Shown piece by piece: positions 48,048-56,233 of a stretch of DNA of 64,000 nucleotides. How positions within the stretch are numbered: the first letter of the stretch is position 1; the number at the start of each line of letters is the position of its first letter. The position numbers and the translations under genes are program-made. The stretch covers positions 124,001-188,000 of the forward strand of contig CASGBA010000002.1 in assembly GCA_949299755.1 (NCBI GenBank), in the 5' to 3' direction. Origin of the DNA: an uncultured Treponema sp. GTDB taxonomy: Bacteria; Spirochaetota; Spirochaetia; Treponematales; Treponemataceae. The notes beneath the pieces are model-generated. The model did not search any database. It worked only from the letters and a program-made list of their open reading frames with translations, and was not told the origin of the DNA.

Positions 48048-49925
48048 TTACACCTGACCTCCAACGTCAGCGTTTTTTGAAGCGGGAAGGAAAATCTCGA
48101 ACCTTGCCCCGGATTTTCCGTCAGGTCTGTCAACAGCCCGGATTATTCCTCCGTGGACGTTTATAACATGACGCGCGATTGAAAGCCCGAGTCCGGTTCC
48201 TCCCTGATCCCGGCTTCTGCCCTTGTCAACCCTGAAGAAGCGTTCAAAGATACGCTCCTTGAAATTATCGGGGATTCCGGAACCGGAGTCTTCTACAACT
48301 ATGCATACACCCCTGTCTCCTCCAAGAAGCCCTGACGTATCCGCGGAAACCGAGCAGGTTACAGTCATGCCGGAAGAACAATACTTTACAGCGTTATCAA
48401 GCAAATTGCTTATGGCATGTTGGAACAACGCCTGGTTTATATCGACCGGAGGAAGATTATCTTCGGAAGCGAAGGAAAGTGTTATTCCTTTACTTTCAGC
48501 GGCTTTCACAAAACCGGAGGAAATTGTCTTTAATACCGAAGCTATATCCACAGGCATTACTTCAGGCGGTTTTGTCTCCTGATCCAGCTTTGACAAAGTT
48601 AACAAATCATCAATGATATCCCCCAAACGTTCTGTCTGGGAATTTATTATTTCCAGGAACTTGCGCTGCTCGCCGATGTCTTCAGAAGGATTTTCCAAAA
48701 GAGTTTCCGCGAACCCTTTGATTGCAGTGACAGGGGTTTTCAATTCATGCGACACATTGGCCACAAAATCCTTACGAACTTGTTCCAGCCGCCGCAACCT
48801 TGTAGTATCAGTAACAATCAGAAGGAAACGCCTCGGCTGACCGGATTCGGAATAATTCTTTATAGGCACACAGCGGACAAGCAAATCATAAACCTGCGCA
48901 GACTGAAAGAGCTGTACGGAAATATCATCCGGCGGACAGGAAGAATCCGAGACGGTTTTATTGATCAATGACATGATATCGGCGTTTCTCACCACCTGTA
49001 TCAAAGGAGAACCCACAGCATCATTTATACTTACAGCAAAGAACTTTTCTGCAGATTCGTTATAAGCAAGAATGACCATATTGCTGTCAAAAACAATAAG
49101 CCCTTCGGTTATACCGGAGAAAACAGCCTGAAAATCATCACGGCTTCTGGCGATACTCTCTATGTTTTCCTGTATCTGCGACGCCATCTGTTCCAACGAA
49201 ACTGAAAGAGCCACCAGTTCCTTAGGCGAAGTCACATTTGATCTGTAAGAAAAATTTCCGGACGCATATTCACCGGCAGCTCTTTGTAATTCAACTACCT
49301 GGCGGATAAGTCTTGCGGATATCAGGAACGAAAAGCCGAGTGCCACGAATAACAGGATGAGAAAAACAAGCGCCATTTTCCTTTGTATACCGGAAGATGA
49401 CAATACATTCATGTAAAGCGGCATCGAAAGTCTGAGCGCATAGATTTCTCCGCCCAATTCCAGTGGACATGCGTAATACAGAACTTCATTTTTGGACACA
49501 GTACTATGCCGTAAATCGGATCCCTCCGATCCGCGCAGAGCTTCAAATACTTCCGTCCGGTATTTATGATTTTCCATCACCGTAACATCATCACTGTCGG
49601 AATCAGCGACGACCGATCCGTTTTTATCTATCAAAGAAATTCTGAAGTCAGGCGTAAACCCGGCAGCATCTTTCAGCATCCTGTCCAATGAACTGGTATC
49701 AAAATGTTCGTCAACCGCCGATTCCGTGATGCTTCTGTATTTATCCGAAACAATTACGGCGACAGACTTGGCGAATATCTGCAAATCTTTTTTAGTCTGC
49801 GTTAAAGAAACTTCATGGGCAGAGTCCAGACTTATCTGGAAAGCCAGCCAAAAAGAAAAGCAGAAGACAATTCCTGCAAACAGAATCAAATAAACCCAAA
49901 TGCGCAGTGATTTTTTTTGTATCAT
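48048..49925 (-). CDS. phoR: phosphate-type sensor histidine kinase
   Basis: The 625-residue sensor has two membrane helices (about 8-30 and 183-204) with a 150-residue periplasmic region between, a HAMP domain (about 205-255), a PAS domain (about 263-370), the H-box VSHELKTPVTAIKGF with the phospho-His, and an ATPase domain with NLLDNAVKY, DSGSGIP and GTGLGLSIA. It overlaps phoB by 4 nt. Operon position after pst and phoU supports phosphate sensing through the PstSCAB-PhoU complex. The large periplasmic part differs from E. coli PhoR and may sense a further signal. Confidence 0.92.
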   Translation of the reverse strand: MIQKKSLRIWVYLILFAGIVFCFSFWLAFQISLDSAHEVSLTQTKKDLQIFAKSVAVIVSDKYRSITESAVDEHFDTSSLDRMLKDAAGFTPDFRISLIDKNGSVVADSDSDDVTVMENHKYRTEVFEALRGSEGSDLRHSTVSKNEVLYYACPLELGGEIYALRLSMPLYMNVLSSSGIQRKMALVFLILLFVALGFSFLISARLIRQVVELQRAAGEYASGNFSYRSNVTSPKELVALSVSLEQMASQIQENIESIARSRDDFQAVFSGITEGLIVFDSNMVILAYNESAEKFFAVSINDAVGSPLIQVVRNADIMSLINKTVSDSSCPPDDISVQLFQSAQVYDLLVRCVPIKNYSESGQPRRFLLIVTDTTRLRRLEQVRKDFVANVSHELKTPVTAIKGFAETLLENPSEDIGEQRKFLEIINSQTERLGDIIDDLLTLSKLDQETKPPEVMPVDIASVLKTISSGFVKAAESKGITLSFASEDNLPPVDINQALFQHAISNLLDNAVKYCSSGMTVTCSVSADTSGLLGGDRGVCIVVEDSGSGIPDNFKERIFERFFRVDKGRSRDQGGTGLGLSIARHVINVHGGIIRAVDRPDGKSGARFEIFLPASKNADVGGQV

Positions 49926-50638
49926 ATATTTTCTCTCAAACGGTACCCGACACCTCTGATTGTTTCAATCAAAGAAAGCCCATTATCCACAGAATTTTTT
50001 TCCGGTGAATCCCCCAGTTTTCTGCGGATACTCAAAATCTGGACATCCACAGATCTATCAGTTACAGGATATCCGTCACCCTTTACAGCATGAATTATCT
50101 GCTGCCGGGAAAACACCTGCCCTGGATGCTCGGCAAGGAAAAGCAGTATGGAAAATTCAGCGGCACTTAATTCCACTGATTCATCCCTGACATAAACCTC
50201 GTGTTTCTTAGGAATAATCCTGATGCTTCCTACCTGTATTTCACCTGACTCCGCGGAAGCGGAATTTTTATCCGCAATTCTGCGTAAAACAGATCTGATA
50301 CGTGCAATTAGAACTTTCGGAGAAAAAGGTTTGGTAATGTAGTCATCCGCACCGAGCTCAAGCCCGGAAACAATATCGCTGTCATCCGTTTTCGCACTTT
50401 CCATTATCACTGGAATTGAAGACAACTCTGCGTCTGCTTTCAGAATACGGCACACATCAAGACCATTCATATCAGGGAGCATCAAATCCAGAATAATGAT
50501 ATCAGGCTTAAAAGTTTTCGCCATCTGCAAAGCTTCCTGCCCTGTCTTTGCCATGGCGGCTACAAAACCTTCCCGCGTCACATTATATGAAATCAATTCC
50601 CTGATAGGCTCTTCGTCATCAACGATTAATATTCTCAC
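49922..50638 (-). CDS. phoB: phosphate response regulator
   Basis: The 238-residue OmpR-type regulator has a receiver domain with the acidic pair VDDEE, the phospho-acceptor Asp51 in IIILDLMLP and Lys in ITKPFSP. A winged-helix DNA-binding domain follows (about 130-232), ending in the RGVGYRLRE signature. It would bind the TTAAC repeats upstream of pstS. The conserved Thr of the receiver is replaced by Ser in IMESAK, which is allowed in the family. Confidence 0.93.
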   Translation of the reverse strand: MRILIVDDEEPIRELISYNVTREGFVAAMAKTGQEALQMAKTFKPDIIILDLMLPDMNGLDVCRILKADAELSSIPVIMESAKTDDSDIVSGLELGADDYITKPFSPKVLIARIRSVLRRIADKNSASAESGEIQVGSIRIIPKKHEVYVRDESVELSAAEFSILLFLAEHPGQVFSRQQIIHAVKGDGYPVTDRSVDVQILSIRRKLGDSPEKNSVDNGLSLIETIRGVGYRLRENI

Positions 50639-50664: not shown

Positions 50665-51294
50665 CTATACTACAGCACTTTCCGCAATATTAACTATGTG
50701 ATCTCCCATGCGTTCAAGATATTTGGCAACCATGAGAATATCCAAAGTTTGTTCAGCGATTTTTCTTGGATGATGATTTTCGTCACAAATCATATCCACC
50801 AGACTGCTTTTCACTGAAAAGAACAAATCATCCACGACATCATCACAGCTGATAACAGAATCCGCAAGCTGTTTGTCTTTTTTAACGAACGCCGTCACAA
50901 CATCGGAAATCATTTTTATTACAACTTCCGCCATCTCAGAAATGAGTTTCTTATTGCAACTCTCGGTGAAATCACTCTGCACCGCAATTTCAGCGATATC
51001 CGCGGCCTGATCTCCCAGCCGCTCCATATCCGTTATTATTTTCAATGCGGCGCTTATCAAGCGCAAATCTCCGGCAACAGGCTGTTGCTGTAAAAGCATA
51101 CGCATACACAAAGCCTGAAGCTCGTCTTCTTTTATATCTATTTCTCTTTCCAACGATATCGCTTTATCGGCCTTCTCCTTTTCTCCATCAAGAAGAGCTT
51201 GAGTAGCGAACCGTATGCCGTCTTCACACTGAACTCCCATCAGAATCAAACCGTCATTTAATTCTTTCAACTGCTGTTCAAATTTTGCTCTCAT
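50665..51294 (-). CDS. phoU: phosphate-signalling protein PhoU
   Basis: PhoU links the Pst transporter to PhoR and keeps the Pho regulon off when phosphate is high. The 209-residue protein consists of two similar three-helix halves with the PhoU signatures around ERLGDQAADIAEIA and ERMGDHIVNIAE. Each holds the D/E-rich metal site. The start overlaps the pstB stop. The order pstB-phoU-phoB-phoR is as in many bacteria. Confidence 0.95.
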   Translation of the reverse strand: MRAKFEQQLKELNDGLILMGVQCEDGIRFATQALLDGEKEKADKAISLEREIDIKEDELQALCMRMLLQQQPVAGDLRLISAALKIITDMERLGDQAADIAEIAVQSDFTESCNKKLISEMAEVVIKMISDVVTAFVKKDKQLADSVISCDDVVDDLFFSVKSSLVDMICDENHHPRKIAEQTLDILMVAKYLERMGDHIVNIAESAVV

Positions 51295-52106
51295 TATCCA
51301 AACCTTCCCGTAATATAATCTTCAGTCTCCTTTTTTTCAGGTGAGGAAAAAATCTGTTCGGTATCTCCGAATTCAATTATTTTCCCCAGAAGAAAAAAAG
51401 CCGTTTTATCACTTATACGTGTAGCCTGCTGCATATTATGTGTTACTATGATAATCGTATAGTTTTTCTGAAGTTCCTCCACCAAATCCTCTATCTTGGA
51501 TGTCGAAATAGGATCCAAGGCGGAAGTAGGCTCATCCATAAGCAGGACTTCCGGGTTGACCGCCAACGCCCTGGCGATACACAAACGCTGCTGCTGTCCC
51601 CCGGACATGCCAAGCGCATTTTTACTGAGGCAATCCTTCGCTTCATTCCATATGGCCGCTTTTGTCAGGGCTTCTTCCACAATATCATCAAGCATACTGC
51701 GTTTTTTGATTCCATGGGTTCGCGGACCATAGGCGATATTGTCGTAAATGCTCATGGGAAAGGGATTCGGTTTTTGGAAAACCATGCCAACCCTTTTCCG
51801 CAGATCATTGCAGTCAATATCGTTATAAACATCCTGCCCGTCCAGAAGGATTTGTCCCTCAATTTTACAGCCGGCGACCAAGTCATTCATCCTGTTAAGA
51901 GACTTTAACAAGGTTGATTTTCCACAGCCGCTCGGACCGATAAAAGCCGTAACAGCCTTCTCCGGGATTTTCAGATTTATATTATGCAATGCCTGAAAAT
52001 TTCCATAATACAAATCGAGATCGCTGATTTCAATCTTTATATTTTCCTGCGAGGAAATATTCTCCGATTCAACAACACCAGAATCCTGGTTAACTACATC
52101 ACCCAT
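51294..52106 (-). CDS. pstB: phosphate ABC transporter ATPase
   Basis: The 270-residue ATPase powers phosphate import. It has Walker [10 protein letters not shown], the PstB-specific [10 protein letters not shown], the signature [18 protein letters not shown] and Walker [13 protein letters not shown]. An N-terminal extension of about 20 residues ([14 protein letters not shown]) precedes the usual start. It overlaps the pstA stop by 8 nt. Confidence 0.96.
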
Positions 52107-52941
52107 CCGACATTCCTTTTGTAAGTTTCTCCAATCCGGAAGAAATAATATTCAACACGATTACAACCAGTAACAGAATAACAGCGGTTGCATACGCCTG
52201 CTCAGTCCGCAAACCCTCGCTCCACAAAGAATAAAGGTGAACCGCCAATGTCCTTCCGCTTCCCATCACAGTGGGAGGTATCTGGGCTACAGTTCCGGCA
52301 GTATAAAGCAGAGCGGCGGTTTCACCGACAATACGCCCTGTGCTCAAAACAATTCCGTTTACAATTCCCGGGACAGCGGACGGCAGAACAATTCTGAAAA
52401 CCGTCCTCAGTTTTCCGGCTCCCAATCCTAAACTCGCTTCCCTGTATGTATCGGGAACAGCAAGAAGAGCTTCCTCCGTGGTACGCATTATCAGAGGTAA
52501 AACCATTATCGCCAGCGTACAGCAACCTGCCAGCAATGAAAACTGCCAGTGGAGTGCCGTGACAAAGAACAAAAGTCCGAACAAACCGTACACGATGGAA
52601 GGTATACCGGAAAGAGTTTCCGCGGTTATTCTGATAACTCTGACGAATTTATTCCCGCGGCGGGAATACTCCGCAAGATAAATCGCCGAGGCGACTCCTA
52701 TCGGCGCGGCAATTAAAAGTGTAAGGAAGGTTACAGTAATTGTGTTGATAAGGGCAGGAAACAAAGAGGCATTGTCACTCGTGTATTCGGACGCAAACAT
52801 TTCCAGGGAAAAATTCGGCAATCCCATATACAGAATATAACACACCAGTCCTACTATTACAAACGCGCTTATAAAGGCGCACAGGCGTACTATCCATCTC
52901 AGTATTACAGATTGAACAGTTTGGGAAAATAAATTAACCAT
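52099..52941 (-). CDS. pstA: phosphate ABC transporter permease
   Basis: The 280-residue inner-membrane protein has six predicted helices and the ABC permease EAA-type loop ([27 protein letters not shown]). [16 protein letters not shown] is the PstA/PstC signature. It pairs with PstC to form the phosphate channel. Its start overlaps the pstC stop. Confidence 0.95.
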
Positions 52942-53792
52942 CAGCGCCCCTCTTTTTTAGCAATCATGAAAATCATGTTTATAACAAGAATGAAAAAGAA
53001 AAGCACGACAGCTGTTCCAATCAAAGCCTGCCGGTGAAGTCCGGCTGCATAACCCATTTCAAGAACGATATTGGCTGTCATTGTACGGATACCCTTTGTC
53101 AGTCCCCTTGGTAAAACAGCCTGGTTTCCGGCAACCATTATAACCGCCATTGTCTCCCCGATAGCCCGTCCTACTCCAAGAATGATTCCGGCGACGATAC
53201 CGGATCTGGCGGCCTTCAACTCAACAAAAAACACGCTCCGTTCTTTACAGGCTCCCAACGCTACAGAACCCTCATAATAGCAGGACGGAACCGCCCTTAA
53301 AGCCGCTTCGCTTGTTCCGGTTATCGTCGGCAAAATCATTATTGCAAGAACGATTGATGCGGCGAGAATACTTGAACCGCTTCCTCCGGCGTAATGCCTT
53401 ATCACCGGAACAATCGCAGTCAATCCGAAAAAACCGTATACAACGGACGGGATACCCGCCAAAAGCTCCACACCCCTTTTCATCGGAACATATATTTTAG
53501 GCGGACAAAACCGCGCCAGGAAAACAGCCGTTATAACGCCGAGGGGAACGCCCAGGATAATCGCACCGATTGTAATAACAATGCTTCCGATTATCATCGG
53601 GAAAATTCCAAAAACTTCTATCTCCGGAGTCCATTTCATTCCGAAGATAAAATCCCAAAAACCTATCTTTATTATTGCAGGAATTCCGTTTGAAAATATA
53701 AAAAAACAGATAAGAATAACCGCACCGACAGAAAGACACGCGGAAAACAGGAACACATACCGCATTGTATTTTCTTTTCCAGCTCCAGCCAT
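52941..53792 (-). CDS. pstC: phosphate ABC transporter permease
   Basis: The protein is about 283 residues with six helices. It has the signature AGIPSVVYGFFGL and the loop YEGSVALGACKERSVFFVELKAARSGIVAGI. I place the start at the ATG at 53792, since GGGGG lies 3-4 nt upstream and the preceding 20 codons of the open frame lack family sequence. It follows pstS after 79 bp. Confidence 0.94.
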   Translation of the reverse strand: MAGAGKENTMRYVFLFSACLSVGAVILICFFIFSNGIPAIIKIGFWDFIFGMKWTPEIEVFGIFPMIIGSIVITIGAIILGVPLGVITAVFLARFCPPKIYVPMKRGVELLAGIPSVVYGFFGLTAIVPVIRHYAGGSGSSILAASIVLAIMILPTITGTSEAALRAVPSCYYEGSVALGACKERSVFFVELKAARSGIVAGIILGVGRAIGETMAVIMVAGNQAVLPRGLTKGIRTMTANIVLEMGYAAGLHRQALIGTAVVLFFFILVINMIFMIAKKEGR

Positions 53793-53871
53793 TTTACCCC
53801 CTGAAAATCCGGTAAGGCTGCCCGCACACAGAATACACAGGCAGCCTTTCACCTTAACAGCTATTCAGAAA

Positions 53872-54777
53872 TCAGTTTTCAATTCCTGACCATTTTGTTA
53901 TATCGCCTGTGTAGATACGGCGCACAACTTCTTTGGAAACATCAGAGACAGGATTCTCTTTGTTGACGATAACCGCGATCCCGTCAAGAGCGATGACAAC
54001 AGGCTCCAGACCTTTTTCAATTTCGGAAGATTTTAACTCGCGGCTGGCCATTCCGATGTCACAGATTTCCTCGGCGGTACTGTTAACACCGGTGGTTGAA
54101 TCACTCTGCAATACTTCGACATTCACGGAAGGGTTAACAGCTTTATAAGCTTCGGAAAGTTTCTCCATGACAGGATAAACAGAGGAAGAACCGGCGACAG
54201 TGACTTTTCCGCTGAGTCCGGCAGAGGCATAAGGAGCCGGTTCAGAGGCGGAGGGGATGTATCCGTTGGCTTCAATCACGCCCTGGCCTTCAGCGGAAAG
54301 GATAAACTGGATAAAGTCGGCTGCAACATCGGAAACCCTGTCTTTCTTTGTCACGATATTGAAAGGGCGGGAAATCTTGTAGGAACCTGCTTTGATATTC
54401 GCGACAGAGGCTTCCGCTCCATCGATGGACAAAGCCTTTACATCATCCTGAAGGGATCCCAGGGAAATATAACCTATTGCAGAAGGATTCCCTTTTACAG
54501 ATGTAATTACAACTTCGGTGCTGTTGGTTATATCAGCTGTATCTGCCGTCATATCCACCTTTTTACCGTTGACGGACTGCTCAACACCGAACAGCTCCAC
54601 AAAGGCGCCCCTTGTGCCGGAACCCGATTCCCTGGAAACAACGGTGATTTCGTCCGCCGCAGCTCCGGATTTTTTTGAACACCCGGTGGTCAAAGCCATG
54701 AAGACTACCGCAGCCATCATATAAACGGCAAACATGAGCTTAACCAGTGTCTTGTTTTCAATTTTGTAGTTTTTCAT
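53872..54777 (-). CDS. pstS: phosphate-binding lipoprotein, circularly permuted
   Basis: This phosphate receptor feeds PstCAB. Its lipobox is LTTGC (Cys33). The usual PstS order is VTVAGSS...first, then ALDGIAVIVN, YTGDITKW and then SRESGSGTR with the C-terminal lobe. Here SRESGSGTRGAF (about 49-60) comes first, followed by GYISLGS and the FIQFILSAEGQ segment. VTVAGSSSVYPV (191-202), ALDGIAVIVN and YTGDITKWSG come at the very end. The two segments are swapped, so the protein is a circular permutation of the common fold. All phosphate-contact motifs are present. Confidence 0.9.
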   Translation of the reverse strand: MKNYKIENKTLVKLMFAVYMMAAVVFMALTTGCSKKSGAAADEITVVSRESGSGTRGAFVELFGVEQSVNGKKVDMTADTADITNSTEVVITSVKGNPSAIGYISLGSLQDDVKALSIDGAEASVANIKAGSYKISRPFNIVTKKDRVSDVAADFIQFILSAEGQGVIEANGYIPSASEPAPYASAGLSGKVTVAGSSSVYPVMEKLSEAYKAVNPSVNVEVLQSDSTTGVNSTAEEICDIGMASRELKSSEIEKGLEPVVIALDGIAVIVNKENPVSDVSKEVVRRIYTGDITKWSGIEN

Positions 54778-54840
54778 TTGTAAACCTCCATTTCTTGTTT
54801 ACGCCTGAAAAATACTCTCTGTATTTGAAAATGAAGTAAG

Positions 54841-54886
54841 TTAATTGTTAAAATTCCGTTAAAAAGGGGTTTAACAGATTATTAAC
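54841..54886 (-). promoter_or_regulatory. PHO-box-like array of TTAA(C) repeats
   Basis: On the minus strand GTTAAT, GTTAAA, TTTAAC and TTTAAC repeat every 11 or 12 bp across about 40 bp. The array lies about 60-110 bp before pstS. PhoB/PhoP-type regulators bind direct repeats with 11-bp spacing, and phoB is in the same operon. Confidence 0.6.
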
Positions 54887-54916
54887 AAAAAAACCTCCCG
54901 GAGGGCATCCGGGAGG
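54887..54916 (-). terminator. intrinsic terminator of the porin-like gene
   Basis: On the minus strand CCTCCCGG and CCGGGAGG (54894-54916) form an 8-bp stem with a 7-nt loop, then seven T. It ends the upstream outer-membrane protein gene and directly abuts the PHO-box array. Confidence 0.9.
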
Positions 54917-54981
54917 CGCAAATCCATCACCTTGGGGATAATGACAGAAAAGCTTTGTGGATAAATACAAAAATATAAGTA

Positions 54982-56079
54982 TCAGAACTCATAAACCCAT
55001 TTTACAGGGAAGTAAACCTGATCAAGGCTGCCGTCAACAAATTCAAGCATAACCTCTACAGCGAATGAACCGATGGAACCGGCGTCATACTCAACACCTG
55101 GATTTACGCAAAATTTGGGGTCATTCTTTTCGGCATCACGGTTGATCGTCATATAGTCGGAGAGAGTCACATATGCAAGAATCGGATCTGTCACACGGAA
55201 ATCACCACGGATGGCGGCATAAAGATCATAGTCAGGAATACCGGGACCTTTTTTAACATCGTCATCCTCGCCTGTTCCAAAGTTTGTAATGAGATCCCCG
55301 CTCAACGCAATCCTGTCAGTTATCCCCCACAATACACTTGCATTGAGGAGGTGGGTTCCATACACATTGAGAAGTCCCTGATAATCCTGGAAGCCGTAAC
55401 CGACGAGGATTTCAAGACCATAAAGCGGATAAATAGCGGCGGATACAGCCACAGACTGTGTATCATGGAAGCCAAAGTTATCTTTGGATCCGGCTATATT
55501 GTGGACGGCGGCGCCGATAACAAACATATCGTTCACTATATATTCGGCACCGACTCCAAGCACAAATTCATCAAAGAAATTGCCGGTAACAAGATTAAAC
55601 GGAGCGGTAAGACCGATAGCCAAATTCGGCAGACCCGTGAACACCAAAGAAAGCCCCTCGCTTCCGAGCTTCTGGGATCCTACATTATCGTCCTCAACAA
55701 ACATATATGAACCGCGGAACCAGTAATCCGTGCTGAATGCAACATCCAGCACATCCAGCGGGCGGAATAATGTATACCAGTCAAAATCATCGGAAGAATA
55801 AAACAGCCGAGCGGAGTCACCGTCAACGCCGCCCTGTGTATCAAACACAGCATATACATCAAGACCCGCATCTATGCGCTCGGACGTAATGTCAACAATG
55901 AATTCATTGTAAATGCCTGCGAAACCGTCGTTTCTGCCTTCGCTGTCTCCATCCATGACATACCAAACATCAGAGCCAAGCTCATTTGAAGCAGACACTG
56001 AAAATCCCTGGGCAAAGACAACCCCGGAAAGCACCAGTGCGGCGGCACACAACGCCGCAATTTTCTTTATTGAAAGCAT
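54982..56079 (-). CDS. outer-membrane beta-barrel protein
   Basis: The 365-residue product has a clear signal peptide (MLSIKKIAALCAAALVLSGVVFAQ) with cleavage after Ala-Gln or just before. The rest alternates polar and hydrophobic residues in many short strands separated by Asp/Gly turns. It ends in Phe (WVYEF), the usual end of a barrel inserted by the BAM complex. It is probably a porin-type protein of the treponemal outer membrane. I choose the ATG at 56079, with AGGAGGT 6 nt upstream. The longer open frame is not needed. It has its own terminator, so it is transcribed alone. Confidence 0.8.
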   Translation of the reverse strand: MLSIKKIAALCAAALVLSGVVFAQGFSVSASNELGSDVWYVMDGDSEGRNDGFAGIYNEFIVDITSERIDAGLDVYAVFDTQGGVDGDSARLFYSSDDFDWYTLFRPLDVLDVAFSTDYWFRGSYMFVEDDNVGSQKLGSEGLSLVFTGLPNLAIGLTAPFNLVTGNFFDEFVLGVGAEYIVNDMFVIGAAVHNIAGSKDNFGFHDTQSVAVSAAIYPLYGLEILVGYGFQDYQGLLNVYGTHLLNASVLWGITDRIALSGDLITNFGTGEDDDVKKGPGIPDYDLYAAIRGDFRVTDPILAYVTLSDYMTINRDAEKNDPKFCVNPGVEYDAGSIGSFAVEVMLEFVDGSLDQVYFPVKWVYEF

Positions 56080-56233
56080 CAAATTACCTCCTATCTTTGT
56101 TTTAATGCTTATTACACTGTCCGAATCCGACATTCGCCGAACCGAAACAAGAAATTTTACAGTTTTTCATTGTTTAAGTCTACCGACATCGGGATAATTT
56201 TATGTTAGTTACAATAAAAGCATACCGGGGTAT

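Follow-up and report, generated by a model that had tools for sequence, protein, structure and literature searches.

The predicted phosphate-binding lipoprotein encoded in this Treponema genome very probably represents a naturally occurring circular permutation of PstS, a textbook binding protein that supplies the phosphate ABC importer Pst with its substrate. The pstS gene occupies positions 53872-54777 on the minus strand of the window, by which is meant the entire 64,000-nucleotide stretch analysed, and forms an uninterrupted frame of 301 amino acids from ATG to stop. Permutation best explains what the analysis shows, namely two complete segments in swapped order, a predicted fold equal to that of a solved structure with this arrangement, conservation of the binding motifs, and the operon context.

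The translated protein begins with a signal peptide of 32 residues carrying a lipobox (54682-54777, minus strand), in which LTTG is followed by Cys33. From the lipobox onwards, the N-terminal half presents SRESGSGTR (residues 48-56), AIGYISLGSL, ISRPFNIVTK, FIQFILSAEGQ and GYIPSA, in that order. After a linker, the C-terminal half presents VTVAGSSSVYPV (from residue 192), CDIGMASREL, ALDGIAVIVN and, at the very end of the chain, YTGDITKWSGIEN. Thus, the segment that is conventionally C-terminal comes first (residues 43-178, SRESGSGTR to GYIPSA; 54244-54651, minus strand), corresponding to columns 117-241 of a conventional PstS profile and, by VIA-align, with model residues 38-176 matching 138-276 of 1twy_A. 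The conventionally N-terminal segment comes last (residues 190-301, GKVTVAGSSS to YTGDITKWSGIEN; 53875-54210, minus strand), corresponding to columns 2-112 and, again by VIA-align, with model residues 186-301 matching 2-118 of 9l8j_B. Between them lies the linker that connects the former C- and N-termini (54211-54243, minus strand), and the best rotation cut falls within it. The preliminary description had already read this segment order from the sequence, had placed the breakpoint between YTGDITKWSG and SRESGSGTR, and had held the gene to be unbroken; the translation, with its single open frame and complete complement of segments, agrees on every point. In structural terms, the short linker would join the old C- and N-termini, and the chain would have been opened between the YTGxITxW helix and the ITVVSRE strand, within the loop that connects them. 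Lobe I, which is discontinuous in ordinary PstS, would thereby become a single continuous stretch, while lobe II would be built from both chain ends and bear the N-terminal lipid anchor.

The swapped order is readily demonstrated with a reference profile built from 30 non-redundant conventional PstS proteins, against which every rotation of the Treponema protein was scored. In its native order, the protein gave two matches, columns 117-241 and then 2-112, with the better piece reaching 143.2 bits, versus a single match over columns 2-241 at 285.0 bits for the best rotation, with the cut immediately ahead of SGKVTVAGSS. The pieces complement one another and almost no columns are missing; those absent correspond to the loop that follows the ITKW helix and precedes the SRE strand, which is also the site of the new ends. 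Rotation likewise raised the score in all 117 permuted-order ORFs collected (median +142 bits), and equal surgery lowered it in all 51 conventional ORFs (median -162 bits). A phmmer comparison with PDB entry 4H1X produced one collinear match (E 6e-67) covering residues 33-299, and the first two conventional matches, 4q8r and 4gd5, were each hit in two swapped pieces. Together with the structural comparison below, these tests support circular permutation, as originally proposed, as the right reading of the protein.

Profile tools designed for the usual order cut permuted PstS in two, and under-annotation is therefore easy. The superfamily domain PF12849 (PBP_like_2) was recovered at 127.1 bits in two stretches, above its gathering cut-off of 27. 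The PstS subfamily model NCBIfam TIGR02136 gave 193.8 bits, also in two pieces; because this is below the curated cut-off of 206.6, the protein is not filed under TIGR02136 as such. Nor does the protein have the conventional segment order, as the rotation test above shows. The notion that permutation alone causes this miss was dropped, as the rotated form, at 203.5 bits in one piece, also falls just under 206.6.

An AlphaFold2 model built from an alignment of 55 permuted relatives attained a pLDDT of 92.9 and a pTM of 0.81; with only six sequences, lobe II was poorly modelled (pLDDT 60.5). The model superposes collinearly, end to end, on 4H1X (Z 36.6, 1.3 Å, 257 of 257 residues), and 4H1X was also far ahead in a Foldseek search (E 8e-36), with conventional PstS structures matching only partially. 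Conventional proteins align one piece at a time: only model residues 37-177 with 1twy_A, 4q8r and 4gd5 (chain residues ~112-276), and only the C-terminal segment with 9l8j_B. Structure prediction, which had been suggested as a check on the permutation, thus upholds it. 4H1X is SP_2084 of Streptococcus pneumoniae, 49% identical to the Treponema protein over 257 residues; it was released in 2012, and a permuted PstS has therefore been present in the PDB since that year. The Treponema protein belongs to the kind typified by 4H1X, being collinear with it along the whole chain in both sequence and fold and sharing an operon with pstC, pstA, pstB and phoU. SP_2084-8 constitute the pneumococcal Pst1 operon (PMC6722419), which is induced at low phosphate, and mutants without Pst1 take up less phosphate under those conditions (PMC4913102). 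Since SP_2084 is permuted and full uptake at low phosphate requires Pst1, a permuted PstS belongs to a working importer. The names clash here: the PDB lists SP_2084 as pstS 2, yet pneumococcal papers place it in the operon that they name Pst1.

In Treponema, the gene heads a pstS-C-A-B-phoU-phoB-phoR operon, all on one strand of a metagenome-assembled genome. The pstC permease ORF (52941-53852, minus strand) is a PstC homologue by sequence and has the same gene order in relatives; downstream of it lie the pstA permease (52099-52941), the pstB ATPase (51294-52106) and phoU (50665-51294), all on the minus strand. A phoB-type response regulator (49922-50638) and a phoR-type sensor kinase (48048-49925) follow, also on the minus strand. 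Permuted genes in general stand nearly always at the head of a pst operon, with phoU mostly present and phoB/phoR often so. Upstream of pstS, TTAA(A/C/T) repeats spaced 11-12 bases apart (54838-54885, minus strand) form a possible Pho box, although the pattern is suggestive only. A strong hairpin with a T run, likely a terminator, lies at 54887-54918 (minus strand) and separates pstS from the gene upstream of it (54982-56133).

The residues expected to contact the ligand are well preserved. Invariant in 55 permuted proteins are S48, R49, E50, G52, S53, G54, T55, R56, S197, S199, S227, S245, R246 and D265, which we take, after E. coli PstS, to be the phosphate site. By analogy with the pneumococcal relative and its genetics, permuted PstS would take phosphate between its lobes and pass it to PstC/PstA, with PstB hydrolysing ATP. 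The permutation is probably neutral for binding. That the permuted protein instead binds another oxyanion is conceivable but highly improbable. Such a reading draws on a divergent pair of permuted proteins in pst-type operons, L009 (L009:1474-2340) and L135 (L135:608-1561), whose binding motifs are altered (AREDGSGTK, and GMISEE replacing GMASRE) and whose ligand may differ. Treponema PstS, however, retains the canonical motifs, has phoU, phoB and phoR as neighbours, and is 49% identical to SP_2084 of the pneumococcal phosphate system; no other PstS was found in its genome.

Permuted PstS is by no means confined to this genome. Elsewhere in the genus, one genome carries a copy that is 100% identical and another a copy that is 75% identical. 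Within the Treponemataceae, permuted PstS occurs in 24 of 145 genomes and conventional PstS in about 22, with most of the rest giving no match; for Spirochaetota, the figure is 9 of 247, with conventional matches in many more. Beyond that phylum, where every count takes in one genome picked for carrying the protein, it was found in 10 of 299 sampled Bacillota, 17 of 149 Coriobacteriia, 6 of 121 Synergistota and 4 of 199 genomes of the desulfovibrio class. Named records are chiefly gut Clostridia, along with Desulfovibrionaceae, Adlercreutzia, Gordonibacter, Pyramidobacter and Streptococcus. The preliminary description had placed the same order in Clostridia as well and had supposed it to be "widespread but poorly described"; the former was right, and the supposition holds with the addition that the arrangement has already been solved structurally. 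In several Clostridia (L040:4362-5768 and other loci), long Ala/Thr/Glu-rich linkers connect the signal region to the PstS domain. The possibility that assembly joined two tandem genes, raised at the outset, or that a frameshift did so, has practically nothing left to recommend it. The source is indeed a metagenome-assembled genome, but the frame is single and open, an identical copy exists independently, and the same order recurs across Treponemataceae, in many other phyla and in a crystal structure; the artefact is already refuted.

How the permutation arose was approached with trees in which both segments of every protein were set in standard order. In the PstS tree, 79 permuted rows formed one group (support 99), with spirochaete sequences dispersed among those of Bacillota, so repeated horizontal entry fits. 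The main permuted operons also formed one group in the permease trees (support 100 with all genes), and therefore the cassette appears to move together. A single origin, with the operon then spreading horizontally, is favoured, because the breakpoint is the same throughout, in the divergent permuted sequences as well, and permease ancestry is largely shared. The proposed route, probably taken once, would begin with a tandem duplication of pstS; after fusion, the leading N-part and the trailing C-part would be lost, and the operon would then have spread horizontally among anaerobic gut bacteria with several entries into spirochaetes. Tandem copies of pstS, from which such a duplication-fusion could start, occur at L064 (permuted) and L183 (conventional). 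The former, from an Anaerotignum genome, has two permuted pstS genes in tandem before pstC (L064:319-1263 and 1365-2327). No double-length intermediate of three or four segments was found among 143 classified ORFs, all of which were either NC or CN, and thus the duplication route is without a supporting fossil. A Lachnospiraceae genome carries, ~3.5 kb upstream of its ordinary permuted pstS, an additional and highly divergent permuted PstS-like gene (L036:481-1410), whose breakpoint is that of the other permuted proteins.

Alternatively, the permutation could have arisen at least twice, in the main lineage and in that of L009/L135, on the premise that the loop from W to SRE would be structurally the easiest place to cut. 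The divergent pair stood apart from the main permuted group in both the 112-row and 67-row PstS trees, and L170, representing the L009 gene, joined conventional Brachyspiraceae in permease trees (support 99). Moreover, one permuted clade was disfavoured on PstC+A+B (p-AU 0.034), a test in which L170 alone was sampled from the pair. Against this, both lineages share the same breakpoint, L009 and L135 are long branches, neither PstS (p-AU 0.285) nor the full gene set (p-AU 0.158) rejected one clade for all permuted PstS, and enforcing that clade gave a higher likelihood with PstC and with smaller sets of PstS. A search for further members of the L009/L135 lineage found none in the groups covered. 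On balance, repeated origin is a serious though rather unlikely alternative to the single origin favoured here.

The Brachyspiraceae also bear on this question. Their PstS proteins (L011, L014 and L019) are of conventional order but lack the canonical junction GxITNWxx(L/V)GGxDxxIxV, which is kept, whole or nearly so, in the 27 other conventional PstS compared; the junction between their segments is shorter and unlike the canonical one. The N-part of these proteins groups with the permuted ones (support 99). Their PstS-C-A-B operon groups with L170 (support 99), nested within a group of permuted plus Brachyspiraceae sequences (support 96). Brachyspiraceae PstS may be the nearest unpermuted cousin of the permuted lineage or a secondary reversal; branches here are long and sampling is thin. 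The latter version, with one permutation followed by its undoing in a conventional-order descendant, is rather unlikely. PstC and PstA are apparently fused in Brachyspiraceae, giving proteins of ~590-610 aa (L167:4544-6334, L168:3707-5488, L169:4312-6153 and L179:2836-4602).

The clear topological change brought about by permutation is that the lipid anchor leaves from lobe II. As the anchor is thereby shifted from lobe I, it is tempting to regard the permuted order as an adaptation to lipid tethering, as has been suggested for TpMglB-2 (Tp0684) of Treponema pallidum, a circularly permuted glucose-binding protein of proposed type Ic that is likewise common to treponemes and Gram-positive gut bacteria (PMC4990184). 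Of 83 non-redundant permuted PstS, 67 do show a lipobox pattern. The remaining 16, including several Treponema relatives, lack it by pattern detection, although at least two (L009 and L042) look like misses, and conventional PstS carries a lipobox about as frequently (22 of 30). An adaptive role in tethering is accordingly improbable.

The open-access literature yielded no paper that names a permuted PstS, deals with 4H1X or states that it is permuted, with subscription papers, database remarks and preprints outside the scope of the search. With 4H1X solved and its permutation named in no paper found, the arrangement is undescribed in the literature searched, not unseen. A permutant that serves its Treponema host as the sole PstS found there, and that has spread with its operon through several phyla of gut bacteria, suggests that neither folding into the usual shape nor hand-over to the permease depends on which lobe bears the chain ends. 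Moreover, the occurrence of both orders in related hosts provides a natural set for probing chain order against tethering, export and transport.

Among known systems, SP_2084/4H1X is the closest counterpart, having the same permuted order, the same fold and the same place at the head of a pstSCAB-phoU operon, but its host belongs to another phylum. Conventional PstS (4GD5 and 4Q8R of Clostridium perfringens, 1TWY of Vibrio cholerae, TIGR02136) shares the two-lobed fold, the motifs and the operon partners, whereas its segments stand in the opposite order, its W..(L/V)GG.D..I junction is unbroken and its anchor is on lobe I rather than lobe II. TpMglB-2 is also a naturally permuted binding protein of an ABC importer in treponemes and Gram-positive gut bacteria, and it has kept its function despite permutation, but it differs in ligand and binding-protein class. 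In TpMglB-2, the first three strands of the N-lobe have been relocated to the C-terminus, with the addition of a fourth crossing between lobes (PMC4990184), whereas the cut in permuted PstS is in lobe II. Permuted PstS is of the PstS kind in sequence and fold, not a permuted class I glucose/galactose-binding fold with a fourth crossing, and its resemblance to type Ic is thus one of analogy. Together, the two proteins suggest that permuted binding proteins are recurrent in treponemes and gut Gram-positives.
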